Made by a program: the position numbers and the translations under genes. The notes beneath the pieces were generated by a model, which saw nothing but the letters and a program-made list of their open reading frames with translations, was not told the DNA's origin and did not search any database. Positions 4,261-23,936 of a stretch of DNA of 48,757 nucleotides are shown here, piece by piece. Within the stretch, counting starts at the first letter, position 1, and every line of letters starts with the position of its first letter. Source of the DNA: Bacteroidota bacterium (GTDB lineage Bacteria > Bacteroidota > Bacteroidia > Chitinophagales > Chitinophagaceae); contig CANGIZ010000007.1 of assembly GCA_947454025.1 (NCBI GenBank), forward strand, positions 1-48,757. Direction: 5' to 3'.

Positions 4261-4607
4261 TTTAACGGTAGTTTAAGACAAATCTAAGGATTTTTGATTT
4301 AGTCTTTGTAGAATCACCTTCCAGAATTAAAAGGTAAATTTGACCTGTCTGGTGGTCTTATGATATGTCGATTATATGACTTAACTTATTCTCAAAGTGG
4401 AAAAGGTGGTCATATTACCCATTTTGAGGTAGTACCTGAGGAGGTAAAATTATTTTGAGGGTCTTTTTATCAAAAAAAAAATCACTAGTCCCCATTTCGA
4501 CCTTTTCCGAAAGTGTCTGAGGTTTGATATTAATGAGAAAGGAGATATATATATTAAGAACTGAAAAAAATAGGAAATCAACCAATTATATATTACTGGA
4601 GACTATC
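4261..4607. other. Non-coding stretch, no gene seen
   Basis: I see no convincing gene here. It holds a short palindrome AGGTAGTACCT (4427-4437) and a copy of TTTGATATTAATGAGAAAGG near 4524, repeated with two changes near 5033. These lie at the possible left margin of the integrative element. Confidence 0.4.
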
Positions 4608-4823
4608 CTATTTAGTTATTCTAACAGTTTTTATCTTTAATTCTCCTCTAATTTTCTTCCTTATTTGTTTTTCCATCATACTTTCTATTTCCTTATATTT
4701 TTTCTCAAAGGACAAAGAGTACCTCCATAATTTAATGGCTATTTTGGTATCACCATTATAGGCATACCTTTTTGCATCTTGTAAAATCATCTCCGTTAAA
4801 ACTGAAAATTTTGAATTAGTCAT
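4608..4823 (-). CDS. Small basic protein of unknown function
   Basis: I do not recognise this 71-residue protein. It is rich in Lys and Glu, predicted mostly helical (TEMILQDAKRYAYNGDTKIA, then KKYKEIESMMEKQIRKKI), and has no signal peptide or membrane segment. The phrase AKRYAYNGDTKIAIKLWRYS could be a helical hairpin of the TPR type, but one repeat is not enough to call it. It lies upstream of the replication-like gene of the integrative element, on the same strand. Coding is plausible but not certain. Confidence 0.45.
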   Translation of the reverse strand: MTNSKFSVLTEMILQDAKRYAYNGDTKIAIKLWRYSLSFEKKYKEIESMMEKQIRKKIRGELKIKTVRITK

Positions 4824-5041
4824 TAACTTGGTTTTAGGTTAAAATTGGGTAATTTTTGCCAACTAATAATCAGTACAAATACTAAATTTTAACACCATTC
4901 AGTTAAACAACGAAACCTCATAATCCATATCTATTATTGGAGAACTCATTTTATTCGGTGGTGAGAAGTTCCCTGACTCCAAGACTGTTATGTCTTACTT
5001 GGTTCCCTAACTTATTCCAAAACAGGATAAAGTTTGATATT

Positions 5042-5130
5042 AATGGGAAGGGGGCCGGCGGCGAGGGGGATGGGTTTGAAGTCGTGAGACTTCGTCTATC
5101 CCGTTCGTTTCACTCACGTCTTCGTTGAGG
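5042..5130. repeat. G+C-rich hairpin segment beside the replication-like gene
   Basis: A stretch far richer in G and C than its surroundings (GGGGGCCGGCGGCGAGGGGG) is followed by a hairpin GAAGTC-GTGA-GACTTC (5078-5093). It overlaps the 3' end of the replication-like gene. A 63-codon open frame crosses it but looks like chance. It could be a nick or processing site or a transcription stop; this is inference. Confidence 0.4.
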
Positions 5131-6121
5131 GGTTATTTATTTCTAGATCTTTTTTAGCATCTTTATATTCTTTATAAAGTTTATGTATGTTTTCAATTTC
5201 TTGTTTAGTGGTAGCAAACATCCTAATATTTTCAATCCAATTTCTTTTAAATTGATTAAGCAGCTCTTTTCCCTGCGAACATGAATCTATAATTTTTTGT
5301 TCCAGTATTTCTATTTCATTCATTTCAATAATTTTTTCTGTACTAGTAAACTGAGCTAATACTGGTAATGTTTCTTTTGTAATATATACTGTAGTAATTG
5401 TGTTCCTACAGGAAGTACCCTCTTGTGATTTAGGAAGTACCCCTATGGTCGTTTGGGAAGTACCCTCTTGTGATTTAGGAAGTACCTCCCTAGTTGTGTA
5501 GGAAGTACTTAATTCAATTTTTCGGTATTCTGTAGCATTACCATTTTTGATTTCTTCAGTTGTTATATAATTCATCTCAACTAATTTTTTAATTTGCTTT
5601 GATATTCCACTACCACCAATACCTATCAGTTCTCCTAGTTCATTATTTGATTTATAACAACCTTCTGGTAATTTTGATAAAGCAATAATTTCTGATAAAA
5701 GTAATTTCTGTGTTGTTGATAATCTAATGTCAAATAATACACTGTAAGGGATATTAATTAAAATATTTTCATCAATTTTATCAATAGGGCTAATTTGCTT
5801 TATTAATTTAATGTATCTATACCCATTTTTATATTCTGTTTTAATAAATCCTAATTTCTTTAAACTACTTATTTGTCTTGAAGCACCATCAGAATTAATT
5901 CCAAGTAGTTTACCAAATCGTTTATTACTAGCATAACAACCTTTAGGCGTTTTATTAAGATTTATAATCTCTGACATCAAAATTATCTTGGTAGGATCTA
6001 ATCTTTTATCAAATAAAATTATAGGTGGTACATGTAGATACTGTTCTTTATTATTACACATAAAATAAAAGACCCCAAATTTCTGCCTGTGGATGAGACA
6101 TACTCTTAGGGGTACTTTCAA
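5114..6121 (-). CDS. Replication-initiator-like protein with two tandem HTH domains
   Basis: This is probably the origin-binding initiator of the integrative element. The protein has two related winged-helix units: about residues 40-105 (LDPTKIILMSEIINLNKTPK ... CYASNKRFGKLLGINSDGAS) and about 115-195 (LSTTQKLLLSEIIALSKLPE ... CYKSNNELGELIGIGGSGIS). This resembles phage replisome-organiser and plasmid Rep proteins. Residues about 205-237 repeat VLPKSQEGTS, encoded by a five-copy iteron array, and the C-terminus is helical. ATG at 6121 is used here, but Met22 (MCNNKEQY) is an alternative start with better family resemblance. The layout of an initiator gene containing its own iterons recalls lambda O. 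Confidence 0.7.
   Translation of the reverse strand: MKVPLRVCLIHRQKFGVFYFMCNNKEQYLHVPPIILFDKRLDPTKIILMSEIINLNKTPKGCYASNKRFGKLLGINSDGASRQISSLKKLGFIKTEYKNGYRYIKLIKQISPIDKIDENILINIPYSVLFDIRLSTTQKLLLSEIIALSKLPEGCYKSNNELGELIGIGGSGISKQIKKLVEMNYITTEEIKNGNATEYRKIELSTSYTTREVLPKSQEGTSQTTIGVLPKSQEGTSCRNTITTVYITKETLPVLAQFTSTEKIIEMNEIEILEQKIIDSCSQGKELLNQFKRNWIENIRMFATTKQEIENIHKLYKEYKDAKKDLEINNPSTKT
5411..5508. repeat. Five iterons (GGAAGTAC every 22-23 bp), candidate replication origin
   Basis: GGAAGTAC starts at 5411, 5433, 5456, 5478 and 5501, so the spacing is 22, 23, 22, 23 bp. Units one and three are identical over 22 bp. The spacing is not a multiple of three, so the motif changes reading frame from copy to copy inside the coding sequence. 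That points to selection on DNA, not on protein. Two helical turns per unit is typical of Rep-bound iterons. A+T-rich DNA lies on both sides. Confidence 0.75.
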
Positions 6122-6419
6122 TAATATTTTTATGTGTTTAATAGATTATTAACCATCCACGTTAATTATCCCACATGTGTAATATAAATATCAAATGATA
6201 ATAAGTAAAGTCTAAAGTGTTCCGAATTTTCTAAATTTTTCTGCAGAATTTTTTTAGGGTTTTTTGACTTTAGCGTCAACTGTTGGATTTTTTATTGAAA
6301 AAAATTGAAATACATCTCTAAGGCCTTATATTGGAGTTGAGAAATAGTCCCTATTTAACGTTGGATGTAGGTAAGGGGGCAGGGAGGGCCCTATCTATAA
6401 TAATTTTTAAAGTTGTTAG

Positions 6420-7619: not shown

Positions 7620-9227
7620 ATGAAAACAGCAATTGTAAAAATTAGCCACTTAGTGGAAGTTCCAGAGTTGAAACAGTATTACACACCTCAATCTGTGGAG
7701 GAATTAGCAACATCTATTGATGTTGATGGATTAAAAATGCCAATCATCGTTACTGAAAAGTACGAGATCATAGATGGCTACCGAAGAGTGGAAGCCATGC
7801 TTCTACTTGGGAAGGAATACATCGATGTCTGGATTGATGATGTTGAACCTATCATTTTCGAACGCATCATTCGAAACATGTATCGAACCAAAACGACTGA
7901 CGACTATGTAAAAGAGTTAAAGACGGTATTTGTTAAGTACCCAAAGAGAATGGGGAAAAAAAGTGAGGATGGGGAGGTGTATAATAGAAATGAGAAGATC
8001 TCAAAAGCATTGAATAAGAAATATTCTGGCAAGGATACTATTACGAAACTTGAAGAAATTACCAAAAAGGATATCGAAGGGAACTTACTTACAAAAGGGA
8101 TTATTGAAAAAAATTGGAAGGTTGAAACTTGTCATGAATTCTTGAAAGAATGGCTTGATATAGATTTGTCAAATAAGTATGGATATACAGAAAAATTAAA
8201 GAGTGGTGAAATCAATATTAAAGATGCAAATAATCTTGTCAAGACAAGATATTATTTAGATAACGAATACCAAGACACATTTGTAATACCAGAGAAAGCT
8301 ACAAATTATAATATTGACTGTGTTGAATTGGGAAAAATAGAAAAACACATTAATACTGTTGATCTTTTATTTACCTCTCCTCCTTATTTTATTCTACGTA
8401 ATTATTTGAATGAAGGCGAGAACCAAGTTGGTCATGAAGAAACCAAAGAAGAATATTGTACAAGAATTGCAAAATTAATTAAGGCAGCCGTTCCAACACT
8501 AAAAGAAACAGCGAATGTGATAATTAATATTGGTGAAACCTATGATAATGGAGTTGGATATGGTATTCCGCAACTTTTAAAAAGTTCAATTGAGAAAGAA
8601 ACTGGTTTGATATATAAAGACCAGCTTTTATGGTCAAAACCTAATCCAAAGCCCCAGAACGAAACAATTAAAAGACCAATTAATAATGTAGAGTATTTGT
8701 TATGGTTTGTTGTTAATCCAAAAAAGGCTAAGTATAACATGTTAAGCTATACAATTGGTGATAGAGTTACTAAGATATCATATGGAGCCAAAGACGTAGA
8801 TAAAGATGGAAAAATTTGGGATAAGAATATCTCATTAACTAAACCCTATCAAAAAATCTATTCGCATATTAAAGAACAAGATATTGCTAAAATCATTGAA
8901 GCAAAGACAGGAAAGAACATGGATGTTTATTCAATATGTAAGGAAGGTCATCCAGCAATTATGTGTAGCGTATTACCTGTAGTTCCGATACTAATGTGTA
9001 CTAACGAAAATGATATTGTACTAGATATTTTTAGTGGATCAAATGTAGTTGGAAGAATGAGCCTCCTGCTAAATCGTAAAATCCTGACTACAGAATTGAG
9101 TAAACAGTATTACAATATTGGCTGCAAGATGCTTAAAAACTCAATTAACGATTTCAATAAAGAAGAATTAGACATTATTAATCAAATCGCATACGGAGAG
9201 GAAAATTTAGTATCAATCGCCGCATAA
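7620..9227 (+). CDS. ParB-like domain fused to a DNA methyltransferase
   Basis: This 535-residue protein is a fusion. Residues about 1-90 are a ParB/Srx-like domain (QSVEELATSIDVDGLKMPII, IIDGYRRVEAMLLLG), then a helical linker. The methyltransferase has the catalytic TSPPYF at about 252-257 and the AdoMet motif DIFSGSNVVGR at about 468-478, so the catalytic motif precedes the AdoMet motif (beta-class order). It likely methylates adenine N6 or cytosine N4 in DNA. No partner restriction gene is next to it, which suits an orphan phage-type methylase that protects or marks element DNA. A second methyltransferase follows after 26 bp. Confidence 0.85.
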   Translation: MKTAIVKISHLVEVPELKQYYTPQSVEELATSIDVDGLKMPIIVTEKYEIIDGYRRVEAMLLLGKEYIDVWIDDVEPIIFERIIRNMYRTKTTDDYVKELKTVFVKYPKRMGKKSEDGEVYNRNEKISKALNKKYSGKDTITKLEEITKKDIEGNLLTKGIIEKNWKVETCHEFLKEWLDIDLSNKYGYTEKLKSGEINIKDANNLVKTRYYLDNEYQDTFVIPEKATNYNIDCVELGKIEKHINTVDLLFTSPPYFILRNYLNEGENQVGHEETKEEYCTRIAKLIKAAVPTLKETANVIINIGETYDNGVGYGIPQLLKSSIEKETGLIYKDQLLWSKPNPKPQNETIKRPINNVEYLLWFVVNPKKAKYNMLSYTIGDRVTKISYGAKDVDKDGKIWDKNISLTKPYQKIYSHIKEQDIAKIIEAKTGKNMDVYSICKEGHPAIMCSVLPVVPILMCTNENDIVLDIFSGSNVVGRMSLLLNRKILTTELSKQYYNIGCKMLKNSINDFNKEELDIINQIAYGEENLVSIAA

Positions 9228-9253: not shown

Positions 9254-10657
9254 ATGTATTCAATTTACGACCAAATCAATAACAGAAAAGTATTGATTTA
9301 CCCTGAAAGAACAACTGTAGACGTTAAAACGACAGATTCAGTTGTATTAACTAACGAACAAATCGCTAGTACCTATTTCCCTGAAGACATTGATGTAAAA
9401 CCAGAAATCTACTTTGATAAGGTAGAAATCGGAGAAGGTAATTACATCTATCACGGAGATAATATCCAGGTATTAAGAACACTACCCGATAACTCAATTG
9501 ACAGTGTTGTAACTGATCCGCCATATGGATTGAAAATTTTAGGTTCTAGGTGGGACTATGATGTACCATCGATTGAACTTTGGAAAGAGTGTTACCGTAT
9601 ATTAAAACCAGGGGGTTACTTGTTATCCTTCGGTAGTAGTAGAACATACCACAGAATGGCCGTTAAAGTTGAAGACGCAGGTTTTGAAATCAGAGACCAA
9701 ATCATGTGGGTTTATGGTAGTGGATTCCCGAAATCACACAACATCGGTAAAGCAGTAGATAAAATTAATGGTACACAGAGAGAAGTTATTGGGAAAAATC
9801 CAAACCATAGAAAAAGTAGTGCTTTGTATGAATTGGGTTTTCAAGGTGGGATGGGAAATGGTCATATTACAAAGGGTTTCAATGAGTGGGAAGGATTTGG
9901 TACAGCACTTAAACCTGCTCATGAACCAATTGTAATGGCAAGAAAACCATTTAAAGGAAGTGTTGCTAAGAATATATTAAAATGGACTACTGGAGGAATT
10001 AATATTGACGATTGTAGAATTGGAGAAGAATTAATTACAACTAATGGTTATGGGATTAATGGGTTTGTGGCAAGTGAAAATTATAAACCATCTTCTCATA
10101 TTGGACGCTTCCCCGCTAACATAATTTTTGATGAAGAAGCTGGTATATTATTAGATGAACAATCTGGTTATACTAAAACGAAATCAGACAAAAACTATAA
10201 ACATAACAAGACAAATAGTGATAGTGATATTTTTAAAAGTAGAGGGACATATACTCCACGAGAGGATAAAGGTGGAGCATCACGATTCTTTTATTGCCCA
10301 AAACCTTCAAGAAAAGAAAAAGATGAAGGTTTAACAATTGAAGCATCAATTATAAAGGGACGTGATGAAGGTCAAGATAATTTTAATGTTCCCCAAAAAT
10401 TAAGAAACACAAAGAGGAAGAATATTCACTCTACAGTAAAGCCTGTGAAATTAATGCAATACCTAATCAGATTGGTAACTCCAATTGGAGGATGTACAAT
10501 CGATCCATATTTCGGGTCAGGTACATCTGGAAAAAGTGCGTTAAGAGAGCAAAAAGATTACAAATTCATTGGTATTGAAAAAGAAAAGGAGTATTTCAAC
10601 ATCGCCGTTGAAAGATGTCAATTCGAATATGAACAATCACTTAAAGTAGCAGCATAA
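9254..10657 (+). CDS. DNA methyltransferase (DPPY type, beta-class order)
   Basis: This 467-residue enzyme carries the catalytic DPPYG at about residues 88-92 (SVVTDPPYGLKI) and the AdoMet motif DPYFGSGTSGKSAL at about 417-430, preceded by the usual HSTVKPVKLMQYLIRLVTP. DPPY is typical of N6-adenine methylases. The large central insertion (about 150-380) holds FPANIIFDEEAG and SRFFYCPKPSRKEKD, common in phage-encoded enzymes that recognise short sequences. The first 60 residues are an extra N-terminal segment. It sits between the ParB-methylase fusion and an ATPase, all co-directional. The exact target sequence cannot be read from the protein. Confidence 0.88.
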   Translation: MYSIYDQINNRKVLIYPERTTVDVKTTDSVVLTNEQIASTYFPEDIDVKPEIYFDKVEIGEGNYIYHGDNIQVLRTLPDNSIDSVVTDPPYGLKILGSRWDYDVPSIELWKECYRILKPGGYLLSFGSSRTYHRMAVKVEDAGFEIRDQIMWVYGSGFPKSHNIGKAVDKINGTQREVIGKNPNHRKSSALYELGFQGGMGNGHITKGFNEWEGFGTALKPAHEPIVMARKPFKGSVAKNILKWTTGGINIDDCRIGEELITTNGYGINGFVASENYKPSSHIGRFPANIIFDEEAGILLDEQSGYTKTKSDKNYKHNKTNSDSDIFKSRGTYTPREDKGGASRFFYCPKPSRKEKDEGLTIEASIIKGRDEGQDNFNVPQKLRNTKRKNIHSTVKPVKLMQYLIRLVTPIGGCTIDPYFGSGTSGKSALREQKDYKFIGIEKEKEYFNIAVERCQFEYEQSLKVAA

Positions 10658-10706
10658 TATATTAATAAATAAAACAAGACTGGTGGACTTAAATCACCAA
10701 TTAATT

Positions 10707-11585
10707 ATGAGTACAACACAAACAACCAATTTATTTGGTATGACAAAGAATGAAGCCTTAGAAAAAGGTAGACAAAACAGAACAAGGTTCTTACAAGTAG
10801 TTGAAAAATTACCACAGATTAGAAATGAAGACAAATACCCCCACAAGTTTGTCTTCGGGTTCCCTGGTATTGGTAAAAGTTATGAAATCACCAATCATTT
10901 AAATGAATCAGGAACCAGATACTTAATGGTCACAGGTAACGTTTCTATGTTCGCCTTCGGTGTTCAATTAGCAGTTATCAACTTCTCAAATCCATTACAA
11001 GAAAGATTAATTGTCTTCTGTGATGACGTAGACACATTGGTCTCAACTGAAGCTAGTTGTAACCAATTAAAATCTGCATTACATGGGCCAAAAGTATTCA
11101 CTTATGAAAAATCATTACAAAGTCAATGGAGCAATCTTAGTGAATTACAGAGGGAAGCCATTAAACATCATCAAGAAGATGGTAAAATGGGATTTCAAGT
11201 ACCAACATCGTCAATGTCTTTTCTTCTTGTTTCTAACATTCAATTACCAACCGATGATGAGGTTAGATTAGCTCGTGAAAAAAGTAAAGGGAAAGCTTCT
11301 TTATTAGCCCATAAGAACGCAATTAGATCGCGTTGTATGGTACAGGATTTTTCCCTTACCAATGGAGAGCTATGGGGTTGGATTGCTGACGTAATACTCA
11401 ATACTACATGTCTTGAACAATTTAAAATGACAGATGATGAGAAATTAATCATTTTAGATTTCCTATGGGATAATTGGGAGTCATTAACAGAAAGATCAAT
11501 TCGTCTTATTGAGAAGATGGCCATCATTAAAAACGAGTACCCAGATACCTATGAAATGGTATGGAAAATCGACTTCTTAAAATAA
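10707..11585 (+). CDS. AAA-type ATPase of the integrative element
   Basis: This roughly 292-residue protein has Walker A GFPGIGKS at about residues 51-58 and Walker B LIVFCDDVD at about 100-108. A sensor-like strand follows (SMSFLLVSNIQLP), then an arginine-containing segment (HKNAIRSRC). This is an AAA fold without extra domains, as in phage and plasmid ATPases that load helicases or remodel DNA complexes; which of these applies is not clear. Start choice: an in-frame GTG at 10683 exists, but ATG at 10707 (MSTTQTTNLFG) gives the more natural N-terminus. The next gene begins 6 bp after the stop. Confidence 0.75.
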   Translation: MSTTQTTNLFGMTKNEALEKGRQNRTRFLQVVEKLPQIRNEDKYPHKFVFGFPGIGKSYEITNHLNESGTRYLMVTGNVSMFAFGVQLAVINFSNPLQERLIVFCDDVDTLVSTEASCNQLKSALHGPKVFTYEKSLQSQWSNLSELQREAIKHHQEDGKMGFQVPTSSMSFLLVSNIQLPTDDEVRLAREKSKGKASLLAHKNAIRSRCMVQDFSLTNGELWGWIADVILNTTCLEQFKMTDDEKLIILDFLWDNWESLTERSIRLIEKMAIIKNEYPDTYEMVWKIDFLK

Positions 11586-13944: not shown

Positions 13945-15204
13945 ATGGCAACATTTAAAATCATCATTGACAAAAGACACAAGCCAGAAAATGACAAGTA
14001 TCATGTGACATTGCGCGTCTCCAACAAGCAGGAAGTTTTATACCTAAGGTTGGGGACGCTGATGTCTACCAAAGAGTATGACAAATACTTTATTAAGAAA
14101 TCATTCAATAAAGAAGTTGACGAGGTTAAAACAAAATTTGAGAAGTACGTCGACAGAGCTAAAAAGATACTGCCAAGTATAGATCCTTTTGATTCAAGTA
14201 AGTTTAGAGATAAGTTCTATGACAAGAATTTTGATCCTGATAATATTATATCTGACGAACAAAAAAAGAGAGGTACATTAAACTACCTTTTCCAAAACTA
14301 TATTAAGGTTAAGACGGAATCAAAAGAAATTAGATTATCAACTGCAAATCTTATGACTGGAACTCTTAATAATATCAATAAGTTTAAAAAAGGATTGACA
14401 TATGAAGATATTACACCTGAATTTCTTCACACATTTGAACATTGGTACTTAAATAAAGATCGTCTTGATGGGAAAAGAAATTCTTTAGCTTCTTATGGTG
14501 GACTTTGCAGAAATATCAAAGCAGTTTTAAACTACCATCGAAAAAAGAAGGTCATTCCTTTTACATACGATTACCCATTCAACGATTATAAGATACCAAA
14601 TTTCGTTCCACCAAAGAGAGTGATTTCCAATATGGAAATTCAAAAGGTTCTTGACTGTAAGGATTTTGATAACATTTGGGATGAATATGCACGTGACATT
14701 TGGGAGATGCTCTACAGATTAAACGGCAGTAATTTTATTGACCTACTATTATTAAGATGGGATAATATCAAAGGGAATAAATTTGTCTTTTATAGACATA
14801 AAACATCAGGAACTAGAAGGAATAATATACGTCCTATTGAGGTAGTAATTAACCCAAAACTTCAAAAGTTAATTGATAAAATTGGAGATAAGGAGAGTCA
14901 ATACGTCATTGGACAATTAAAACAGGTAAATTATACAGAAGAATACCTATTAGAAAGAAATAAAAAACTAAAAGCAAGATATAATAGTCGACTTAAGAAA
15001 CTCGGTAAAAGACTTGGATTGACTCTGTCTCTTGACATTTCAATGGCCAGAGACGCATACGCCAATACCCATAAGAGAGCAGGTACCAACCCACTAAAAA
15101 TTAGTGAGAACATGAACCATTCAGACCCTCGCACCACTACCCTTCACTACTTGGATAACTTTGAATTTGATTCAGATGTGGATGTGAATGATGTGTTGTT
15201 GTAA
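13945..15204 (+). CDS. Tyrosine recombinase (integrase) of the element
   Basis: This 419-residue enzyme would insert and excise the element. An N-terminal arm-binding region (1-100), a SAM-like core-binding domain (about 105-215) and a catalytic domain (about 225-410) are visible. Catalytic candidates are Lys286 (YRHKTSG), Arg369 (MARDAY), His392 (MNHSDP) and nucleophile Tyr402 (HYLDNF). The usual first Arg (G-x-R) is replaced: the aligned residue is Asn263 in RLNGSNFIDLLLLRW, although Arg258 lies close by. The His after the second Arg is Asp370. Loss of the first Arg is reported for IntDOT of Bacteroides, so the enzyme need not be dead. Nothing like a tRNA follows its stop. Confidence 0.9.
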   Translation: MATFKIIIDKRHKPENDKYHVTLRVSNKQEVLYLRLGTLMSTKEYDKYFIKKSFNKEVDEVKTKFEKYVDRAKKILPSIDPFDSSKFRDKFYDKNFDPDNIISDEQKKRGTLNYLFQNYIKVKTESKEIRLSTANLMTGTLNNINKFKKGLTYEDITPEFLHTFEHWYLNKDRLDGKRNSLASYGGLCRNIKAVLNYHRKKKVIPFTYDYPFNDYKIPNFVPPKRVISNMEIQKVLDCKDFDNIWDEYARDIWEMLYRLNGSNFIDLLLLRWDNIKGNKFVFYRHKTSGTRRNNIRPIEVVINPKLQKLIDKIGDKESQYVIGQLKQVNYTEEYLLERNKKLKARYNSRLKKLGKRLGLTLSLDISMARDAYANTHKRAGTNPLKISENMNHSDPRTTTLHYLDNFEFDSDVDVNDVLL

Positions 15205-15330: not shown

Positions 15331-16149
15331 TTAATTTTCATTATATCCAAAAGTCCTACTTAACAATAATTCTTTCCACCAACTTTCTCTTTCCAAAATC
15401 ACATTATCATTTATGCTAGATTTATAAATATCAAGTATTGAATATCTAAAATATTTTTTTATATGATCAAAATTTAATGATTTCATACCTACATTTCCCC
15501 CATGACCATTTTTAACATATGACATCCACCTTCCAAGTATCATATCTTGACCATAAGCAGATCCAACATACTTCTTCCCGTTCGATGTATCAATTATTAA
15601 ATAAACACCTTTTTGGTTTTGCAATGCTGTTTTCCAATTTTCTTTATTTATTATTCTTGACAATGAATCCCAAGATAGATTTATATTGTCATAGCCAGGA
15701 AAAATATCATTATCGAATGTATCAGGCAATATTTGTTCAATATCACATTCATCAATAACTGATTCAGCTTTTCTTATCAAAGTTTGAACTTTATTTTTAT
15801 ACCTTACAATTAATCTCCCAAAGTATTTGTTATAATGATCTAATTCTTTATACTCATATCCAACACCATTTAATTTATCTAAATCTTTTGTTACCTCTCC
15901 AATATGAAACAAAAGCCATAAATCATCTTTTGGATCAATTTTTATAAAACCAATTGTTATTTGTCCTTCTTTATAAGATTTATTTTTATTATAATTCCAA
16001 TAATGACCATTTAGTAGAGTTTCAAAATTCTTATTTTTATATATTTCAATTGGAGTCCAATTTTGATCAAACATTGTATTAAATCTTATTTTTACATTTT
16101 CAAGATTATTAAGATTTAATAAATCATTCAATTTAATAGTTGTTTTCAT
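15331..16149 (-). CDS. GIY-YIG nuclease-domain protein
   Basis: This 272-residue protein carries a GIY-YIG endonuclease domain in its C-terminal half: GVYLIIDTSNGKKYVGSAYG at about residues 180-199, the catalytic Arg in LGRWMSYV, and the metal-binding Glu in VILERESWWKELLL near 255. The first 170 residues (FNTMFDQNWTPIEIYKN, GQITIGFIKIDPKDDLWLLF) look like a separate beta-rich domain, perhaps for target recognition. This architecture is found in type II restriction-like and defence nucleases. It is the last gene of a leftward unit with the 205-residue protein and the DUF2779 nuclease (gaps of 12 and 7 bp). Confidence 0.82.
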   Translation of the reverse strand: MKTTIKLNDLLNLNNLENVKIRFNTMFDQNWTPIEIYKNKNFETLLNGHYWNYNKNKSYKEGQITIGFIKIDPKDDLWLLFHIGEVTKDLDKLNGVGYEYKELDHYNKYFGRLIVRYKNKVQTLIRKAESVIDECDIEQILPDTFDNDIFPGYDNINLSWDSLSRIINKENWKTALQNQKGVYLIIDTSNGKKYVGSAYGQDMILGRWMSYVKNGHGGNVGMKSLNFDHIKKYFRYSILDIYKSSINDNVILERESWWKELLLSRTFGYNEN

Positions 16150-16161
16150 TTTATTTTTAAT

Positions 16162-16779
16162 TTAAATATTAAAATACAATTTTAATTCTTGATATAAAAC
16201 ATCATCATCATCAATATAATAATTGTTCAAATATTCAGTCATTTTAATTTTTAATCCAATTTTTTGGTTTCGAAAGAAATAAAAATCATTATTATTATCT
16301 TTATTTATAACATCTAAGTCGTACTTTATCTCTCTTAATTCCGAACCTTGTAATTTCAAATTGTCAAATAAAGAAATATGAGTTGCAGTTTGTTTAAATT
16401 TATTAACATATTCAAAAATTTCAGCAATATGTATTGGATTGTTATTGTTATTCAAAAAATCAAATACAATTTCTCTTCTACTCCAATGATAATATTTGTT
16501 TTCAAATTTTCCCCACTCACTTAAACCAAACTTCTTTACTATTTGATCATAATAAAATAATCTATCTCCTTCAAAATTAATTCTTGCAGAAAATAAAGAA
16601 GATTTAACAGAGTCACATGTTTTTAAAACCCCGGGGATAATTTGATTGTAAACATCAAATATTTCAACATGACTCATTAAAGAGCCATATACTCTTATGA
16701 TTTCCAAATATTGAAAATTTCTATGTAATTTTTTAAAAGATTCAACTTCAATTTTACTGATTAATTCATTTATTTTCAT
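16162..16779 (-). CDS. Unknown protein with possible winged-helix segment
   Basis: I do not recognise this 205-residue protein. The N-terminal 100 residues are helical (FKKLHRNFQYLEIIRVYGSL). Residues about 100-145 (REIVFDFLNNNNNPIHIAEI, then FEYVNKFKQTATHISLFDNL) look like a winged helix of the kind seen at the ends of some restriction proteins (HARE-HTH-like pattern, weak). The C-terminus is acidic (DDDD at about 190). It lies between a two-nuclease protein and a GIY-YIG nuclease and is probably an accessory or DNA-binding part of the same system (inference). Confidence 0.55.
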   Translation of the reverse strand: MKINELISKIEVESFKKLHRNFQYLEIIRVYGSLMSHVEIFDVYNQIIPGVLKTCDSVKSSLFSARINFEGDRLFYYDQIVKKFGLSEWGKFENKYYHWSRREIVFDFLNNNNNPIHIAEIFEYVNKFKQTATHISLFDNLKLQGSELREIKYDLDVINKDNNNDFYFFRNQKIGLKIKMTEYLNNYYIDDDDVLYQELKLYFNI

Positions 16780-16786
16780 AATAATA

Positions 16787-18664
16787 TTATTTTAATCCCC
16801 AATGGTGGGCAATGATAACCATTGCCATTGTGTCAAGTTTACAATACTCTAATAATTGTCTTTTAATTTCATCTTTCTGAGATTGGTTTAAACTATCATC
16901 AAATCGAATCCTTTGAAATGCTCTCATGGCATCTGTACCACCAGCAACTGCATTTTCTTCGTCTATTTGTGTAGTATCTGCTTTTAAAGTATCATAAGGG
17001 TCTACAATTCCACCTTCAAAATCAGTAGCGGAATAACTTTTGAAAAAAGGCACTTGATGCAAATAGGTATGATTGTTCCAAATAGCAGGGAGCACTTTTT
17101 TAATGGAAGTTCTACCTTTCATGTATGGATGAAAATAATATTTCTTAGTAAGATCATTCATGTCTACCAACCTGCCTTCCCGCTCAACACTTTTATCACT
17201 TGTTATGCCTATTAGCCATTCTGCTAAATTATCGTTAGTATAATCAAATACTTCCATTTGATGTAAGATGGTTCTTAAAACAGTGTTTTCATGTGTAGCC
17301 CACATAAAAGGCGTACCCGAAACTCCAATTTGTTTCATTAGTGACTCAGAAAAAGCAAAGTTTGGGAACTTACCCTCTGTTTCAATCCACTCAGAATGTA
17401 TTGGAGTTGCACCTTCATATGGAATAGTATGACAACTCCACTGAAAGGCAATTAATTCATATGGTCTCATTCCCTCATGAAATGGCAAAGCACCTGTATA
17501 AGTCTCAAAGTCAATAAAATGTAATGGATATTGGTATTCTTTCAATAAAGATTTTAATTCAGGAGAGATCCACTCCTTATTTTCTTCAGTATACTTTAAC
17601 TGAATTATTTGCCTCTCTGCCCTAACTCCAATTTCACCTTTTTTATTTTTTAATCTCTCAGGTACTACCTCAAATAACCCCGTTTTGGATTGTGAGATTA
17701 ACTCATCCAAGTATGATTGACTGTCTTCATTTTTTATAGAACCACCATGATATAAATCAAAAATATGAGGATCAGGATCTGCTAAACTACCCCAACATTC
17801 TTTAAAACCATTTTTATTTGCACCATCACATTTGAACTCACACGCTTTACAAGATTTATTAATTGAATAATCGGTATCCTTAATCCCTTCATTGAGTATT
17901 CTAATAAAGTTATTAGCTCTATTCTTTATTATGTCCTGTATTTGTATCACCCTGTCCTTTACATCCCTTAATTGTAATAATCCATCTTTCTTCAATAACT
18001 CAATAAAATTTGAACGATTAACATTCTTATCATATTTGAATATAACATCTGGTTTCTTAAATCTTGGTTTTTGTTGTGCAGGTAACTCCTCAACTTCTTT
18101 ATCATTATAAACTTTAGAATCAATAACTGTAAACCAACCAATCAAACCTTCGATATTTGTTCTTTTCGATTTATCTGGCATGAACAAATAAGGATGAATA
18201 TCAAAATCAGGTAGTGCCTCTGACATCACCAAATACTGAAATGCTACATCCTCAATATACTTTTCAAGTAATTTTTCTTGTTTATACTTATCATCCTCAG
18301 TATCGTGAGATTTTGCCTTTACTTCTATTAGATTGATTTTGTTTCCGATTTTTTCTAATATATCAACTCTTATCAATTTTTCACCAGATTGGATAGCAGC
18401 CTCGAATAAAACACAATTTTCCTGTTGAAGACATTCATTGGTCTTATTAATAGCACCCAAGGTGGTTTTTTCATCAATATCAACTCCATCAGGATATAAT
18501 AAAGTTGCCAAGTGACCAACAACATAACCACCTTTAGCTAACATATCCATGTACTCGTTCGTATCATTTGAGGTTGGATAACCTTGCTTCTTGTAAACAA
18601 GTTTTTTAGGACAAGTTGATGCTAACTGAAAATCCGATTTAGATAATGTTATATTAGTACTCAT
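16787..18664 (-). CDS. DUF2779 protein: Cas4-like nuclease joined to a DnaQ-like exonuclease domain
   Basis: This 625-residue protein appears to combine two nucleases. Residues about 1-290 are Cas4-like: STCPKKLVYKK at the start, FEAAIQSGEKLIRVDILEK, the D...ExK pair ending in IEVKAK, and a Cys cluster KSCKACEFKCDGANKNGF with another Cys, suiting a 4Cys Fe-S site. Residues about 375-620 are the DUF2779 domain with a DEDD-like pattern: HFIDFETYTGALPF, WATHENTVLRTIL, and the final LEYCKLDTMAMVII. Activity on DNA or RNA ends is inferred. A terminator separates it from rmuC upstream; the next two genes follow closely. Confidence 0.8.
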   Translation of the reverse strand: MSTNITLSKSDFQLASTCPKKLVYKKQGYPTSNDTNEYMDMLAKGGYVVGHLATLLYPDGVDIDEKTTLGAINKTNECLQQENCVLFEAAIQSGEKLIRVDILEKIGNKINLIEVKAKSHDTEDDKYKQEKLLEKYIEDVAFQYLVMSEALPDFDIHPYLFMPDKSKRTNIEGLIGWFTVIDSKVYNDKEVEELPAQQKPRFKKPDVIFKYDKNVNRSNFIELLKKDGLLQLRDVKDRVIQIQDIIKNRANNFIRILNEGIKDTDYSINKSCKACEFKCDGANKNGFKECWGSLADPDPHIFDLYHGGSIKNEDSQSYLDELISQSKTGLFEVVPERLKNKKGEIGVRAERQIIQLKYTEENKEWISPELKSLLKEYQYPLHFIDFETYTGALPFHEGMRPYELIAFQWSCHTIPYEGATPIHSEWIETEGKFPNFAFSESLMKQIGVSGTPFMWATHENTVLRTILHQMEVFDYTNDNLAEWLIGITSDKSVEREGRLVDMNDLTKKYYFHPYMKGRTSIKKVLPAIWNNHTYLHQVPFFKSYSATDFEGGIVDPYDTLKADTTQIDEENAVAGGTDAMRAFQRIRFDDSLNQSQKDEIKRQLLEYCKLDTMAMVIIAHHWGLK

Positions 18665-18723
18665 TATAATATGAATTTAAGAGATTTTAACTTAATTCTT
18701 TAAAAATTATAAGTTTTAGGAAA

Positions 18724-18757
18724 AGAAAGCGATGGTTTTTCAACCAATCGCCTTCTT
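18724..18757 (-). terminator. Terminator between rmuC and the DUF2779 gene
   Basis: Read leftward, the RNA forms a stem with GCGAT/ATCGC and GGTT/AACC arms around a GAAA-type loop, flanked by A-rich and T-rich ends (AAGAAG...TTTCTTTT). It lies in the 124-bp gap after rmuC and divides the leftward genes into two transcription units. Confidence 0.6.
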
Positions 18758-18788
18758 AATTTACTAACCCACCAAATCAAAAATCAAA

Positions 18789-20060
18789 TTATTCTTCATT
18801 ACTAGTTTCTATATCTAATAGATTAACTGAGTCGTTTGTTTCTAAAGCCTGAATGTTTTTTAACTTGGAATTGATAGCTCTTGTTCTAACACCCAACACT
18901 TCATCTAACTGATTTAATCCTGTTTGAATATTGTTTTGTGCCTTGCCTATTAATCCACCAAAGTTTTCAAATTCCTTCTTAACTGCACCTAATACTTTCC
19001 AAACCTCACTACTTCTTTTTTGGATTGTTAATGTCCTGAATCCCATTTGAAGACTGTTTAGAATGGCCGCAAGGGTAGTTGGACCTGTAACTATTACTTT
19101 ATAATCCTTTTGAAGTTCTTCTAATAAACTTGCTTTTTTAACTACCTCAGCATAAATCCCTTCAAATGGCAAGAACATGATACCAAAATCTGTTGTGTTT
19201 GGTGGGTCAATGTATTTGTCTCTGATGTCTTTAGCCATCTTCTTAATTGTAGTCTCAAGGTTCTTTTGTGCAACTTGGAATTTTTCAGGATCACCTGTTT
19301 CGTATGCTTCTTGTAAGAACTCATAAGCATCTTTTGGAAACTTAGCATCTATTGGAAGATATACAACACTGCCTTCCTCATCCTTACCTGGTAATTTAAC
19401 TGCAAACTCTACTAAATCATTACTACCCTTTTTTGTTTTTACATTAGCCTCATATTGTTCAGGAGCTAGTATCTGTTCAAGTAATAATGATAACTGAACC
19501 TCACCAAACCCACCTCTCATTTTTACATTACTTAATACCTTCTTCAATCCACCCACATCTTGTGCTAGTGTTTGCATATCACCAAGTCCTTTTTGAACTG
19601 ATTCTAATTGTGTAGTAACAAGTTGAAATGATTGAGATATTCTATCGTTCAATGTTTTTTGTAGTTTTTCTTCTACTGTTTCTTTCATCTCAGTCAAATG
19701 TTTGTCCGTAGATTTAATTAGTTCATTTTGGCGCTTCTCTATCTCATCATATCTATCCTTCTGTAATTGAGTAATGTCTGTAAACTTGGTGTTAAGGAAA
19801 GCATTAAAACCTCTAAACTCATCCTTAATTGATTGAGCCTGTTGATTGAACTTTTGCTCAACCTGTTCTCTTATTTCTTTTTCAATACCTCTAATAAGTC
19901 CAGCATTGGTTTGGAACTCTTGTTTGATACTTGACTCGATTCTAGTTTGGTTTGATAAAATCACTTCAATACGAGGGTCTAATGATGAACCCTTTCTTGA
20001 AAAAAGAACAAACACTAATCCTAAATTGACAATACCAAGTAATAATAAAATGTATAACAT
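18789..20060 (-). CDS. rmuC: RmuC-family recombination/nuclease protein
   Basis: This 423-residue protein is an RmuC homologue: an N-terminal membrane helix (LYILLLLGIVNLGLVFVLF), a long coiled coil (about 40-180) and the RmuC domain (about 180-400) with RGGFGEVQLSLLLEQILAP, YLPIDAKFPKDAYEFL, FGIMFLPFEGIYAEVV and TGPTTLAAILNSLQMGFRTL. RmuC is thought to be a PD-(D/E)XK-like enzyme that limits DNA inversions at repeats; homologues have also been seen with defence genes. Here it follows an AAA ATPase by 14 bp, so it is clearly part of that operon instead of a lone housekeeping gene (inference). Confidence 0.9.
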   Translation of the reverse strand: MLYILLLLGIVNLGLVFVLFSRKGSSLDPRIEVILSNQTRIESSIKQEFQTNAGLIRGIEKEIREQVEQKFNQQAQSIKDEFRGFNAFLNTKFTDITQLQKDRYDEIEKRQNELIKSTDKHLTEMKETVEEKLQKTLNDRISQSFQLVTTQLESVQKGLGDMQTLAQDVGGLKKVLSNVKMRGGFGEVQLSLLLEQILAPEQYEANVKTKKGSNDLVEFAVKLPGKDEEGSVVYLPIDAKFPKDAYEFLQEAYETGDPEKFQVAQKNLETTIKKMAKDIRDKYIDPPNTTDFGIMFLPFEGIYAEVVKKASLLEELQKDYKVIVTGPTTLAAILNSLQMGFRTLTIQKRSSEVWKVLGAVKKEFENFGGLIGKAQNNIQTGLNQLDEVLGVRTRAINSKLKNIQALETNDSVNLLDIETSNEE

Positions 20061-20074
20061 ATTTGAAATTTTAA

Positions 20075-21754
20075 TTAATGAATAAAACCTATTGTTGATC
20101 TTCCTGATTTACTTAAAATGAATTCCTCATTACATAGGGTAGATAAATAGGATTCATGATCCAAGTTGATATCTAATACGGATTTTACAAGTAATTTCTT
20201 TTTAATATTTGCTATTTGTCCACCAGTTAATGAAAACTGTTCTGTTAAAGTGTCTATTGTTTTAACTGAAATGTCTTTAAAAACATTAGAAAGTATCTTT
20301 TTTCTAACTTGCTCCTCTGGTTTCTTAAAATCAATTTTATAAAGAAGACGGCGATCAAACGCAGAGTCTAATTGATCTGCTAGATTGGTAGTTGCCATGA
20401 ATATTCCTTCAAATTCTTCAAGTTCTTGTAATAAAATATTCTGAAGAGCATTAAACGATTTATCTACACTCGAGTTTACTGACATTCTTTTTCCAAGTAT
20501 AGCATCTGCCTCATTAAATAATAAAATTGGAGCCTTTTGAAAATGCTTTCTAGCTTGTTTATATTCATCGAATACCTTGGCGAGATTCTTTTCACTTTCA
20601 CCAACCCACTTAGACTGAATTTTCTGAATCTCTACCATGAATATTGATCTCCCCGTAGATTTTGCTACTTGTTTTACAGAGGAAGTTTTACCTGTACCGG
20701 GATAACCATATAATAACACAGTGAAACCTTGTTTCATCCCATTGTCTTTTAATCGGGACATTAAGCTTTTGTAATTGTCCTCTTCCAATGCATTTGAAAG
20801 AGTTTCGATTTGTTCGAGTTCTGAATCGTTGTAAAATAACTGTTCATGTTCGATCTTGTCTGGGTTAATGAGTAGTCCCATTTTAGGTCTAAACTCTTTT
20901 TTAATTGTGTCTTGGTACCCTCCCAATAATACATCCATTGCATGTTCTGATAGTTTAACGTAATTTAAAAATGATAACATTTCGTCTGAAAACACTACAA
21001 GGTCATTTTTGAATAAAATACAATTATTCTCTTTGACTAATCTTTTATACTTAACTCTGTCATGAATTTCAGAAAACACCTCCTTAATAAGTTTATCAAA
21101 GTCTACTTCTTCTGCACCTTCAAGATGTTCTATTGCTAAATCTAATAATAATGTCAAATCGTAGTTGGTTAAATTATCTTGAGATAAGATCCACTCTACT
21201 TCTGTGAATTTTCTATTGTTTTCAAGTACACCTCTAACCTCTTCAACCAATACTTCAGTTGTAATTGTAGTTTCAGTACGTTTACAAATCAAGTCCCTAA
21301 CCTCACCTAAGACTCCGAAAAAATTCTCTAACTTTTGATTCTTCAACAAATCTTTATCACCTTTCATCATTGCATCTATAGCCCTTCCATGCACTTGAAT
21401 TACCTTATTATAATCAGACTTACGTCTGCTAGTATAATCGTTACGTTTAGTGAATAATAATTTCATTTCAGTCAGTTCATCAATAGCTTGGGTAATGTCA
21501 GCAAGGCAAGAAATATTTTTACCAAAATAATCTACAAGCTTTTGTGTATCTACATCAATATCCTTTAAACCACACTCAAGATATATTGATAATACGATTG
21601 ATTGAAAATGACTAATCTCATAAAAAGACATTATGTTAGCCGTTTCTGTTTTTAATTCATTAACGAGATCATCATTTAATAATTGACCCTTTGTTGATGA
21701 TACAACTGTTTGAACTGACTTGAGAAGTTCTTTGGAAATTTGTTTATTACTCAT
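20075..21754 (-). CDS. AAA+ ATPase, first gene of the rmuC operon
   Basis: This 559-residue protein has a helical N-terminal region (1-310) and a C-terminal AAA+ module. Walker A is GYPGTGKT at about 350-357. A pore-like segment KIQSKWVGESEKNLAKVF follows, then Walker B LLFNEADAILGKR, where Asn takes the place of the first acidic residue (a pattern I recall in similar bacterial ATPases). Sensor 1 is FMATTNLADQLD and the arginine finger is AFDRRLLYKI. This is a remodelling ATPase of the FtsH/katanin-like clade; its client is unknown. A palindrome lies 139 bp upstream of its start. Confidence 0.85.
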   Translation of the reverse strand: MSNKQISKELLKSVQTVVSSTKGQLLNDDLVNELKTETANIMSFYEISHFQSIVLSIYLECGLKDIDVDTQKLVDYFGKNISCLADITQAIDELTEMKLLFTKRNDYTSRRKSDYNKVIQVHGRAIDAMMKGDKDLLKNQKLENFFGVLGEVRDLICKRTETTITTEVLVEEVRGVLENNRKFTEVEWILSQDNLTNYDLTLLLDLAIEHLEGAEEVDFDKLIKEVFSEIHDRVKYKRLVKENNCILFKNDLVVFSDEMLSFLNYVKLSEHAMDVLLGGYQDTIKKEFRPKMGLLINPDKIEHEQLFYNDSELEQIETLSNALEEDNYKSLMSRLKDNGMKQGFTVLLYGYPGTGKTSSVKQVAKSTGRSIFMVEIQKIQSKWVGESEKNLAKVFDEYKQARKHFQKAPILLFNEADAILGKRMSVNSSVDKSFNALQNILLQELEEFEGIFMATTNLADQLDSAFDRRLLYKIDFKKPEEQVRKKILSNVFKDISVKTIDTLTEQFSLTGGQIANIKKKLLVKSVLDINLDHESYLSTLCNEEFILSKSGRSTIGFIH

Positions 21755-21892
21755 AGGAAAAAATTTAGAAGGGCGACAAATTTGAAGTAGTTAAATGATA
21801 TGGCAGAAAAAAATTGATTTAATTTATACAGATGTGAAGAACTTTTTTGGAAGGTTTTTTTATCAACCAAGAATTCAAAAGTATAAGTTTGA

Positions 21893-21910
21893 TTTGAAAT
21901 TTTGTTTCAA
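21893..21910. promoter_or_regulatory. Palindrome copy 1, upstream of the AAA-rmuC operon
   Basis: TTTGAAATTTTGTTTCAA has arms TTGAAA and TTTCAA. It overlaps the end of the SLOG gene and precedes the AAA-rmuC operon. An identical 18-bp copy lies at 22302-22319 before the SLOG and WYL genes, so one regulator may control all three units; the WYL protein is the obvious candidate. Confidence 0.6.
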
Positions 21911-22266
21911 TTTGAAACCTTAGGAATATATTTTATCACTTTTATTTCCTTTGAGATTTTACTACAATAATTGATACTGAATTCAGTACCCTTTGATTTA
22001 CAATCCCAAAATGCATAACAACAATCACAAGACTCAATAATTTGTTTGTTTCTAACTACCCCTGCCGAACGTCCATAAGTTTCCCAATCTGGTTTAATAA
22101 TTAATGTGGGAATATTATTTTCCTTAGCCCAATTTTCAGCTAATGTATCGGCACCCACCGCACCACCTGAAATGATCAATTCAACCTGTTCTTTTATTAC
22201 ATTCAGTTCATTTTCAAGTTGAATTTGATCTGAGAAATTTCGACTACCTACTACTGCTATTTTCAT
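21907..22266 (-). CDS. SLOG-domain protein (DUF2493 type)
   Basis: This 119-residue protein has the Rossmann-like SLOG pattern: MKIAVVGSRNFSD at the start, LIISGGAVGADTLAENWAKE at about 30-50, KPDWETYGRSAGVVRNKQII at about 60-80, and the C-terminal AFWDCKSKGTEFSI. SLOG proteins bind or process nucleotides and often occur in defence and stress loci as sensors. The gene stands between two copies of one palindrome, upstream of AAA-rmuC and divergent from the WYL regulator. A role as nucleotide sensor for the island is inferred. Confidence 0.82.
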   Translation of the reverse strand: MKIAVVGSRNFSDQIQLENELNVIKEQVELIISGGAVGADTLAENWAKENNIPTLIIKPDWETYGRSAGVVRNKQIIESCDCCYAFWDCKSKGTEFSINYCSKISKEIKVIKYIPKVSN

Positions 22267-22301
22267 ACTTTTTGATTTGGGAGGTCAAAGATCGAATCGC
22301 G

Positions 22302-22344
22302 TTTGAAATTTTGTTTCAAAACCAGAATTGAAGTAAAACTTCAA
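22302..22344. promoter_or_regulatory. Palindrome copy 2 and a second inverted repeat in the WYL/SLOG gap
   Basis: TTTGAAATTTTGTTTCAA (22302-22319) is identical to the site at 21893. Nine bases later comes TTGAAGTAAAACTTCAA (22328-22344), arms TTGAAGT/ACTTCAA with a 3-bp spacer. Both lie between the divergent SLOG and WYL genes and probably act as operators, perhaps for WYL self-repression (inference). Confidence 0.6.
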
Positions 22345-22374
22345 AACAGGGTTGTTTATTTGTTTTAGCAAACC

Positions 22375-23481
22375 ATGAAAACTATCAGCAAATACATAAA
22401 ATTGAAAAAAACGTTAGTTTTTGAAACAAAAAGACATATTATTTCAAAATATGATACCTTTGGCAAAACGGATGTTATGCCAATAAGTAAAAATGCTAGA
22501 AAGAGGTTCATTCTAATAGATGGTATTCTTAAAAGTCACAAGAGATACTCAATTAAGGAAATAGCTGAAAAGGTAAATGAACAATTAGAAGAGGATGGAT
22601 TTGCTGTAGTCAGTGAGAGAATGATCTATAATGACATTCAAATGATGCAAGAGGAATATCCCGTTAACATTATTAAAAAAGAAGGGAAATACCAATACGA
22701 GACAAGAGATGAATCCATTACAAATGAAATCTTGGATCAAAAAGACAGAGAAATCATTGAAATGGCTCTACAGACCTTTTCAATATATAAAGGTTCTGGT
22801 TTGTTTGAAAAGTTTGATGATGTTATCACAAGGTTGATGGCAGGATCGGTTTTACGCAGACTTAATAAATCGGATCACAAGAAGTACATTCAAATCGGAG
22901 AGTTAACTGGCAAAACAGGGCAAGAGTGGATTGAGGTTATATATGATGCTATTGTAAATTATAAGACACTTATTATTCACTATAAACCCTATGGTGGAGA
23001 AACTAAGACTCGAACAATCAGTCCCTACTTGTTAAAGGAATATCGTAACGTTTGGTACATGGTTGCTTGTGCAAATGAAACAAAACACAAAGGGAGTACA
23101 AATCTTTTCAAACTAAACAGAATCCAAAAAATAGAACCGTGTGAAGAACCATTTGTAATAGACGAAAAGTTTAGTGCTGAAGATTATTTCAAGTATAGTT
23201 TAGGTGTCTTTCACGTACATGGTTCTGAACCAATAGAAGTTAAATTGAAATTCAACAAAAACCTTATTCCGTTGATATCTGAATCTAAAATCCACCCTTC
23301 TATGGAGATTGTATCTAAGACTGAAGACGAAATGATTGTAACTTTTACAGTCTATAATACAATTGAATTGAAAAATAAGATTTTAAGTTTTGGAGCAAAT
23401 GCTGAGGTAATTAGTCCAAAAGAGCTTAAAGACGAAATTATCAAAATAATTGATCAAGCTAAATTGATATATTCAAAATAA
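22375..23481 (+). CDS. WYL-domain transcriptional regulator
   Basis: This is a helix-turn-helix regulator with a ligand-binding WYL domain. The HTH is at about residues 45-90 (RFILIDGILKSHKRYSIKEI, AEKVNEQLEEDGFAVVSERM). The WYL domain is at about 175-270 (YKTLIIHYKPYGGETKTRTI, SPYLLKEYRNVWYMVACANE), followed by the C-terminal WCX part. WYL proteins repress phage-defence operons and respond to nucleic-acid fragments. It is divergent from the SLOG/AAA/rmuC genes with shared palindromes between. ATG at 22375 adds a 34-residue basic extension; ATG at 22477 (MPISKNARKRF) matches the typical family start. Confidence 0.88.
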   Translation: MKTISKYIKLKKTLVFETKRHIISKYDTFGKTDVMPISKNARKRFILIDGILKSHKRYSIKEIAEKVNEQLEEDGFAVVSERMIYNDIQMMQEEYPVNIIKKEGKYQYETRDESITNEILDQKDREIIEMALQTFSIYKGSGLFEKFDDVITRLMAGSVLRRLNKSDHKKYIQIGELTGKTGQEWIEVIYDAIVNYKTLIIHYKPYGGETKTRTISPYLLKEYRNVWYMVACANETKHKGSTNLFKLNRIQKIEPCEEPFVIDEKFSAEDYFKYSLGVFHVHGSEPIEVKLKFNKNLIPLISESKIHPSMEIVSKTEDEMIVTFTVYNTIELKNKILSFGANAEVISPKELKDEIIKIIDQAKLIYSK

Positions 23482-23489
23482 AATAAATT

Positions 23490-23936
23490 ATGGGAAGAAA
23501 AAAAATATATACGGAGGACACAAAATGGTTAAGGCAAATATATAATAATAAAAAGACCGAGAATGGAGGTTTTTCTAAAGTTACAACAATAGAATTTATA
23601 GAATGGTTTGACCAAAGTGTTTACGATAAAGGTTGCTGTTATTGTGGAACAACTCACGAAACAAGTAAAAAGATATTTGATTTCCAAATCATTTCAAAAG
23701 GTAGATTAGATGCGACTAGAGGCAAACATAGAATGCATAGATTAGAATTAGAAAGAGTAATTCCCAATGAACCATATGATAATTTAAAAAATTTAGCATG
23801 GGCATGCCACTGGTGTAATAATGCTAAATCAAATTTTTTTACTAAAGAAGAATTCAAACCGGTTATATCTGATGCCATTAAAATAGCTTTAGACAAAATA
23901 ATTGAAGAAATTGATAAAAAAATAAAATATGAATAA
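23490..23936 (+). CDS. HNH endonuclease
   Basis: This 148-residue protein is a small HNH nuclease: a zinc CxxC pair (CCYCG) near residue 52, then HRLELERVIPNEPYDNLKNL and AWACHWCNNAKSNFF at about 82-115, giving the His, Asn and second zinc Cys pair. It probably cuts DNA. It lies 8 bp after the WYL regulator and overlaps the next gene by 8 bp, so it belongs to the rightward operon. No methyltransferase is adjacent, which argues for a defence nuclease under tight control, not a simple restriction enzyme (inference). Confidence 0.85.
   Translation: MGRKKIYTEDTKWLRQIYNNKKTENGGFSKVTTIEFIEWFDQSVYDKGCCYCGTTHETSKKIFDFQIISKGRLDATRGKHRMHRLELERVIPNEPYDNLKNLAWACHWCNNAKSNFFTKEEFKPVISDAIKIALDKIIEEIDKKIKYE

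Follow-up and report, generated by a model that had tools for sequence, protein, structure and literature searches.

A repeat array in the window, the 48,757-nucleotide stretch of DNA analysed here, is very probably an origin core: it would serve the replication of a small integrase-bearing element from within that element's own initiator gene, in the manner of phage lambda. The window lies on contig C7 of a 2.04-Mb draft genome, and gene families such as BT4734-like and Phage_int_SAM_5 suggest a Bacteroidota host. We favour this reading because the gene product matches initiator-family profiles, the repeats and their spacing are conserved at the DNA level, and the same layout is found in other initiator genes, lambda O among them.

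An initiator-like gene with an internal repeat array

The gene, rep, occupies positions 5114–6061 on the minus strand (ATG at 6061) and encodes an initiator-like protein of 315 amino acids, which is predicted to comprise two winged-helix segments, a linker encoded by the array and a helical C-terminus. The Rep sequence without its first methionine was used as the query against Pfam and PHROGs. In Pfam, it matches HTH_36 over two stretches (E 4.8e-12), and the second winged-helix segment maps to 5564–5725 on the minus strand. In PHROGs, it matches phrog_428 (replication initiation protein, 3.1e-19), phrog_2880 (2e-18), the O-like phrog_678 (1.5e-16) and phrog_19658 (2.2e-15). The HTH_36, phrog_428, phrog_2880 and phrog_678 matches bear out the description of the gene as replication-initiator-like in an earlier note on this DNA, and the sequence profiles support Rep as a replication initiator whose DNA-binding part is of the winged-helix type. 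All ten further array or genus homologues that were compared with PHROGs also match replication-initiation families. Against Phage_rep_O (PF04492), Rep scores 15.3 bits, below the curated cut-off of 28.7, which places it outside that Pfam family, with an O-like way of working still possible. NCBIfam gave no match, and a sequence search of solved structures at an E-value of 0.1 gave no relative. A structure model built on a thin alignment has low confidence (mean pLDDT 43) and is too poor for a fold search; it contains helices and strands at residues 116–184, no structure at 186–260 and helices at 261–309. The model suggests that residues 116–184 form the second winged helix, that the unstructured residues 186–260 hold most of the array-encoded residues, and that the C-terminus is helical.

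Five copies of GGAAGTAC begin at 5411, 5433, 5456, 5478 and 5501 on the plus strand with spacings of 22, 23, 22 and 23 bp, and all five lie inside the minus-strand ORF. The word positions thus confirm the five-unit array within the coding sequence, and its spacing, that the earlier note had described. In the gene direction, the word reads GTACTTCC and the spacing is 23, 22, 23 and 22 bp. Numbered in this direction, the iterons are at 5501–5508, 5478–5485, 5456–5463, 5433–5440 and 5411–5418, each a match to the word on the minus strand, and the proposed origin core spans 5405–5514, 3′ of the second winged-helix segment. The window contains eight copies of GGAAGTAC in total, compared with 0.68 expected, a number reached by none of 100 dinucleotide shuffles. 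The codon phases of the five copies are 2, 1, 2, 1 and 2. The frame does therefore change from copy to copy, as had been claimed, but only two phases alternate, not three, and the word returns to the same frame every 45 bp, or 15 codons. GTACTTCC is accordingly translated in turn as G-T-S, which becomes S-T-S in the first copy, and as V-L-P. When the protein was held fixed and synonymous codons were permuted, none of 300 shuffles reached the array score of the window, which indicates that the repeat is not forced by the protein sequence alone. The units at 5411 and 5456 share 22 identical bp, and identity between the two 45-bp units is 84%, which makes an in-frame duplication of 45 bp plausible.

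Conservation of the array in related genomes

rep is matched in six of 147 genomes of the genus, its own included. The array is present in four of the six and absent in one (G1054); the match in G1014 is short, and the presence of an array cannot be judged from it. The closest homologue, in G982, is 70% identical, and those in G1000 and G1064 share 30 and 32% identity with the window protein. The comparison that had been proposed as a check, whether the spacing is kept while the protein varies, came out in favour of the array in G982, G1000 and G1064. The G982 array contains four exact words and one degenerate word (iteron 3). Among codons for the same amino acid in the window and G982, 28 of 29 are identical in the array and 133 of 191 outside it (Fisher p 0.0012), in support of the earlier suggestion that DNA-level selection is the likely cause of the repeat. 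The spacers of this pair (54/57 nucleotides identical) are kept as well as the cores (42/45), so the pair alone cannot separate selection on iterons from, for example, a recent exchange of the whole stretch.

In G1000 and G1064, TAGTTC replaces TACTTC, and there are five copies at exactly 23, 22, 23 and 22 bp. Between these two genes, 16 of 34 amino acids are identical in the array and 133 of 190 in the rest of the protein. At the nucleotide level, the iteron cores are 41/45 identical, compared with 26/57 for the spacers (p 8e-7) and 418/570 for the rest of the gene (p 0.004); deriving the core positions from the repeated word itself favours the cores somewhat. Synonymous codons are kept at 14 of 16 sites in the array and 73 of 127 elsewhere (p 0.016). 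The window and G1000 follow a similar pattern, with 34/45 core, 18/57 spacer and 254/537 other nucleotides shared. The excess of kept synonymous codons is absent in the more distant pairs window–G1000 (p 0.83), G982–G1064 (p 0.88) and window–G533 (p 0.62), and in the last of these the cores are kept no better than the rest (18/38 and 260/540). Taken together, the sequences support conservation, as DNA, of an iteron array inside the coding sequence, with the signal weaker or missing in distant pairs.

A general array finder combined with synonymous shuffles gave the full score for G1000 (0/300 shuffles), 1/300 for G982, and 6/300 for G1064, in which it found three copies only. It detected no such array in G1054, where an in-frame 45-bp protein-like repeat with steps of 27 and 18 bp, judged by eye, stands at the same place. 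The 23-22-23-22 register is exact in the window, G982, G1000 and G1064 and degenerate in G533, a genome of the phylum sample; the G533 array was undetected by the free array finder and is seen by register only, which fits 27 of 30 positions and is equalled by none of 515 other sampled spacing sets. In G344, from the order sample, GAAAAGCGCAA occurs four times at 22, 23 and 22 bp, a word unrelated to that of the window at the same spacing. The order and phylum samples contained rep matches in 5 of 396 and 5 of 395 genomes, respectively, own genome included in both, and contributed distant relatives only. A direct search of viral contigs found no rep homologue among nine candidate stretches, and a looser plasmid search returned eight records, none with 80% protein coverage.

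Arrays in other initiator genes

We surveyed 35 initiator genes: the window gene, eight related-genome loci, five viral-contig genes, lambda O as a known positive, 19 phage genes and one plasmid gene. One script searched all of them with the spacing free from 16 to 30 bp, and a score of 7 or more was taken as an array. Initiator identity was assigned by profile for the window, L028, L189, L019, L029, L006, L004 and L031, and by tblastn similarity and record annotation for the others. Arrays were found in 19 of the 35 genes, lambda O among them, a fraction that is not a population estimate since the sample holds genes selected by word as well as close relatives, the latter also leading the counts to overstate independence. 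L019, L028, L029 and L189 were found through the word of the window, L038 is a relative of L028, and PM1, SpaA1, phi1_092021 and EauM-23 entered as relatives of L029. Protein similarity or profiles, and not the word, led to the arrays of L004, L031, BK5-T, PLgT-1, HU1, c5, Skulduggery, Cruim01, FNU4, SE-1 and the Lysinibacillus phage. The other 16 genes are below the threshold, including those of G533, L003, L005, L007, L009 and phi31. Five of 86 control ORFs reach a score of 7; one of these, in L278, is the PM1 initiator read from another start, which leaves 4 of 85.

The 19 arrays contain 55 spacings, of 20 bp (3), 21 bp (1), 22 bp (24), 23 bp (19), 24 bp (5) and 26 bp (3). Thus 43 of the 55 are 22 or 23 bp and 49 are not multiples of three, and every one of the 19 arrays uses more than one codon phase. 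Among the 14 arrays that have at least four copies and score 7 or more, four (window, L004, BK5-T and PLgT-1) alternate strictly between 22 and 23 bp, as do those of the genus relatives G982, G1000 and G1064. Strict alternation is therefore not universal, and the pitch of 22–23 bp is the broader regularity. Most arrays begin near codon 87–116 of their gene; those of L029 and PM1 begin near codon 150, and that of the window, whose protein has two winged helices, at codon 184.

Scans based on the word itself serve as a caution and are weak as evidence. Pairs of GTACTTCC match 21 viral stretches, in three of which (L019, L028 and L029) the pair is inside an initiator gene. Scans with three words matched at least 119 genome-contig and 111 viral-contig stretches and added one further initiator, L189. 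Among the matches listed for GGAAGTRS chains at 20–25 bp, 219 of 279 repeat at a constant 21 or 24 bp and 21 have only 22- and 23-bp steps, coding status ignored. A home-made profile gave two weaker matches, L254 and L247.

Several of these loci differ in the form of the repeat. By eye, the iterons inside the viral-contig genes L019, L028 and L189 seem to be palindromes (ACTTCCC-3 bp-GGGAAGT in L019 and L028) and are nearer to the dimer-binding type of lambda than to the direct repeats of the window. The palindromic GGACAAAAATGTCC occurs three times in the initiator-like gene L031 (G473), with spacings of 22 and 24 bp, and the 60 bp that come next are the most AT-rich in that gene. In the viral contigs L023 and L024, GTACTTCC recurs every 11–12 bp in a gene of a different kind, FtsK-like ATPase by eye.

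AT content and proposed mechanism

Of the 18 other array genes, 16 have the layout of lambda, with the 60 bp next to the end of the array reaching a within-gene AT rank of at least 0.92. The window departs from this pattern: with a rank of 0.55 in a rep gene that is 72% AT throughout, its 60 bp do not exceed the remainder of the gene in AT content. The ranks in G982, G1000, G1064 and G533 are 0.86, 0.98, 0.95 and 0.80, respectively. GC skew turns at about 5.5–6.5 kb, near rep; the gene direction turns at the same place and explains the skew equally well, so it is not counted. Two DnaA-box-like sites, each with a single mismatch, in 2.5 kb were not counted either.

We infer binding, melting, direction, helper proteins and the replication of the excised element. 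Rep, with its two winged helices, would bind the five iterons that encode its own linker and would open nearby AT-rich DNA. Like lambda O, it would then most likely load the host helicase and recruit the replication machinery of the host, perhaps with assistance in helicase loading from the AAA-like ATPase of the element.

Organization of the element

The genes of the element are ordered as a 71-aa ORF, rep, a second 315-aa ORF, a ParB–methylase fusion, a second methylase, an AAA-like ATPase, small ORFs, an HTH_17 protein and an integrase. Pfam identifies a protein with a ParB-like N-terminus and a DNA methylase (7620–9227, plus strand; 53% identical to its G982 homologue) and another DNA methylase (9254–10657, plus strand), which has no homologue in the 20 kb of G982 compared. 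The AAA-like ATPase (10683–11585, plus strand) matches phrog_1250, of the category unknown function, is 74% identical to its G982 homologue, and might be a candidate helicase loader. A tyrosine recombinase (Phage_int_SAM_5 / Phage_integrase in Pfam; 13945–15204, plus strand) is located at the far end of the element. Among the element proteins that were scanned (ten against Pfam and six against PHROGs), no phage structural, packaging or lysis gene was recognised, and neither was a conjugation gene. To the right of the integrase, at 15331–23936, the translations give the impression of nuclease-, ATPase- and WYL-like genes, which we take to resemble a defence island.

The left junction of the element is probably at 4327–4383: G986 corresponds to the window up to 4327 (93%), and the G982 element corresponds to it from 4383 on. 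The G982 element shares, in order, rep, the second 315-aa ORF (43%), the ParB–methylase, the ATPase and the next small gene; its integrase has no match to that of the window and adjoins tRNA-Met. A tRNA-Met(cat) is located just beyond the integrase in G982, G1000 and G1054 (L309 10982–11056, L310 18408–18482 and L312 9598–9672), where these rep-bearing elements end. A search of the window for a tRNA-Met fragment found none, and no convincing direct repeat is present at the ends of the element in the window.

The rep leader (6059–6194, minus strand) is 78% identical in the elements of G975 and G979, two genomes of the genus, with the copies at 570–695 of L299 and 4125–4251 of L300. The slot 3′ of the leader is occupied by a BT4734-like_N gene in G975 (L299; Pfam E 5.6e-8) and by a similar-looking 422-aa ORF in G979, which suggests exchange of the replication module behind a shared leader in these genomes.

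Around the 71-aa ORF (4608–4823), positions 4500–4542 and 5010–5052 form an imperfect direct repeat (74%). G982 joins the flanks of this ORF without the ORF (4383–4512, then 5017 onward), and G975 retains some of this segment, there next to a different replication-type gene. The segment has the look of a small insertion or module in its own right.

Comparison with known gene-internal origins

In lambda, as in the window, the iterons are inside the initiator gene and 3′ of the part of O that encodes the DNA-binding N-terminus. Lambda O has four annotated iterons within the gene, 20, 24 and 23 bp apart, and the O-like profile phrog_678 matches the window protein, so the likeness to lambda drawn in the earlier note holds. 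PMC5043065 describes a lambda ori that maps within O and is bound by O dimers, with iterons that are nearly perfect 19-bp inverted repeats beside a clear A+T-rich stretch. The repeats in the window, in contrast, are shorter, direct and alternate at 22 and 23 bp, and the protein has two winged-helix segments. In the Stx phages P27 and 933W, O is reported to be longer by 13 amino acids, in frame, owing to two extra iterons, and PMC7466680, the source of this report, also tabulates P27 plasmids that were not recovered after protein-neutral changes to the iterons.

Among lactococcal phages, the initiators TP901-1 ORF13 and Tuc2009 ORF16 each bind direct repeats that lie in the gene encoding them, and these repeats are origins according to PMC8965321. 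The initiator-gene arrays of BK5-T and PLgT-1 have spacings of 23, 22 and 23 bp, and the BK5-T record annotates a repeat_region at its array; phi31, also lactococcal, did not reach the array score. The lactococcal genes differ from the window in repeat word and in their phage context, and TP901-1 and Tuc2009 are likened by description only. SPP1 oriL, with direct repeats and an AT-rich region, is placed within gene 38, the gene of the origin-binding protein, in PMC6316719; SPP1 differs from the window element as a lytic phage with a second origin and is also likened by description only. Phage-inducible chromosomal islands (PICIs), as portrayed in PMC6092414, resemble the window element as small integrative elements with their own replication module, whereas their origin is located 3′ of rep and has two sets of iterons that flank an AT-rich region, a layout that the window, with one array inside rep, does not share. 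Primase, packaging or capsid genes were not recognised among the scanned element proteins.

Alternative explanations

The array could instead be an autoregulatory operator or an incompatibility (handcuffing) site for the same protein, with initiation elsewhere on the element. Initiator-binding sites of iteron plasmids serve control too, and the window lacks a distinct AT-rich stretch right after the array. We nevertheless consider this improbable, since the array is about 550 bp into the gene and away from the promoter, the same layout is present in lambda O, and the TP901-1 and Tuc2009 origins are reported inside the initiator gene. An inverted iteron-like site near the rep promoter (6109, an 11-bp match) was considered as an operator and rejected: it ranks only 16th in the window by matrix score and was not kept as an iteron in the homologue alignment.

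It is less probable still that the repeat is a feature of the protein, either a linker that is repetitive and disordered or the product of tandem duplication, with the similarity in DNA as a by-product. One DNA word yields two unrelated tripeptides in turn, no synonymous shuffle reaches the score, synonymous sites are conserved in the array, and the array-encoded residues of G1000 and G1064 differ from each other more than the rest of the protein does, with the DNA word retained. These observations are set against the identity between the two 45-bp units, the lack of structure of the encoded segment in the low-confidence model and the in-frame protein-like repeat at the same place in G1054, all of which fit a protein feature. 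A chance or neutral tandem repeat would be compatible with the abundance of GGAAGTRS chains in public sequence, most of those listed having a uniform period, but we find it very hard to credit when the spacing is kept in diverged homologues, other initiators carry different words at similar spacing and so few control ORFs reach the array score. An origin core inside rep is the reading that we retain.

Implications

The principle of an origin inside its initiator gene is old and well documented in lambda, SPP1, TP901-1 and Tuc2009, and the present case would place it in a new lineage; in this sense the result is solid, not startling. In the open-access literature (subscription journals were outside the search), we found no statement of such arrays in Bacteroidetes or of a spacing rule. 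We propose tentatively, and with rather less than even confidence in the whole, that the window represents a family of small integrase-bearing elements in which the replicon is one overprinted unit, the gene being its own origin, with an array built on a double step of 45 bp or 15 codons and a rep that can be swapped for a BT4734-like gene behind the leader. If this is true, the 45-bp double step would allow two iterons to be gained or lost without breaking the frame of the initiator, and such a double-coding quantum would explain both the alternation of 22 and 23 bp and the drift of the word under a fixed spacing. The spacing signature could also aid the search for origins in unannotated mobile elements. 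The case would carry the gene-internal origin beyond model phages, into a lineage of small integrative elements, in which fixed spacing, a drifting word and a diverging protein would provide a natural series for the coevolution of an initiator and its binding sites within one dual-use stretch of DNA.
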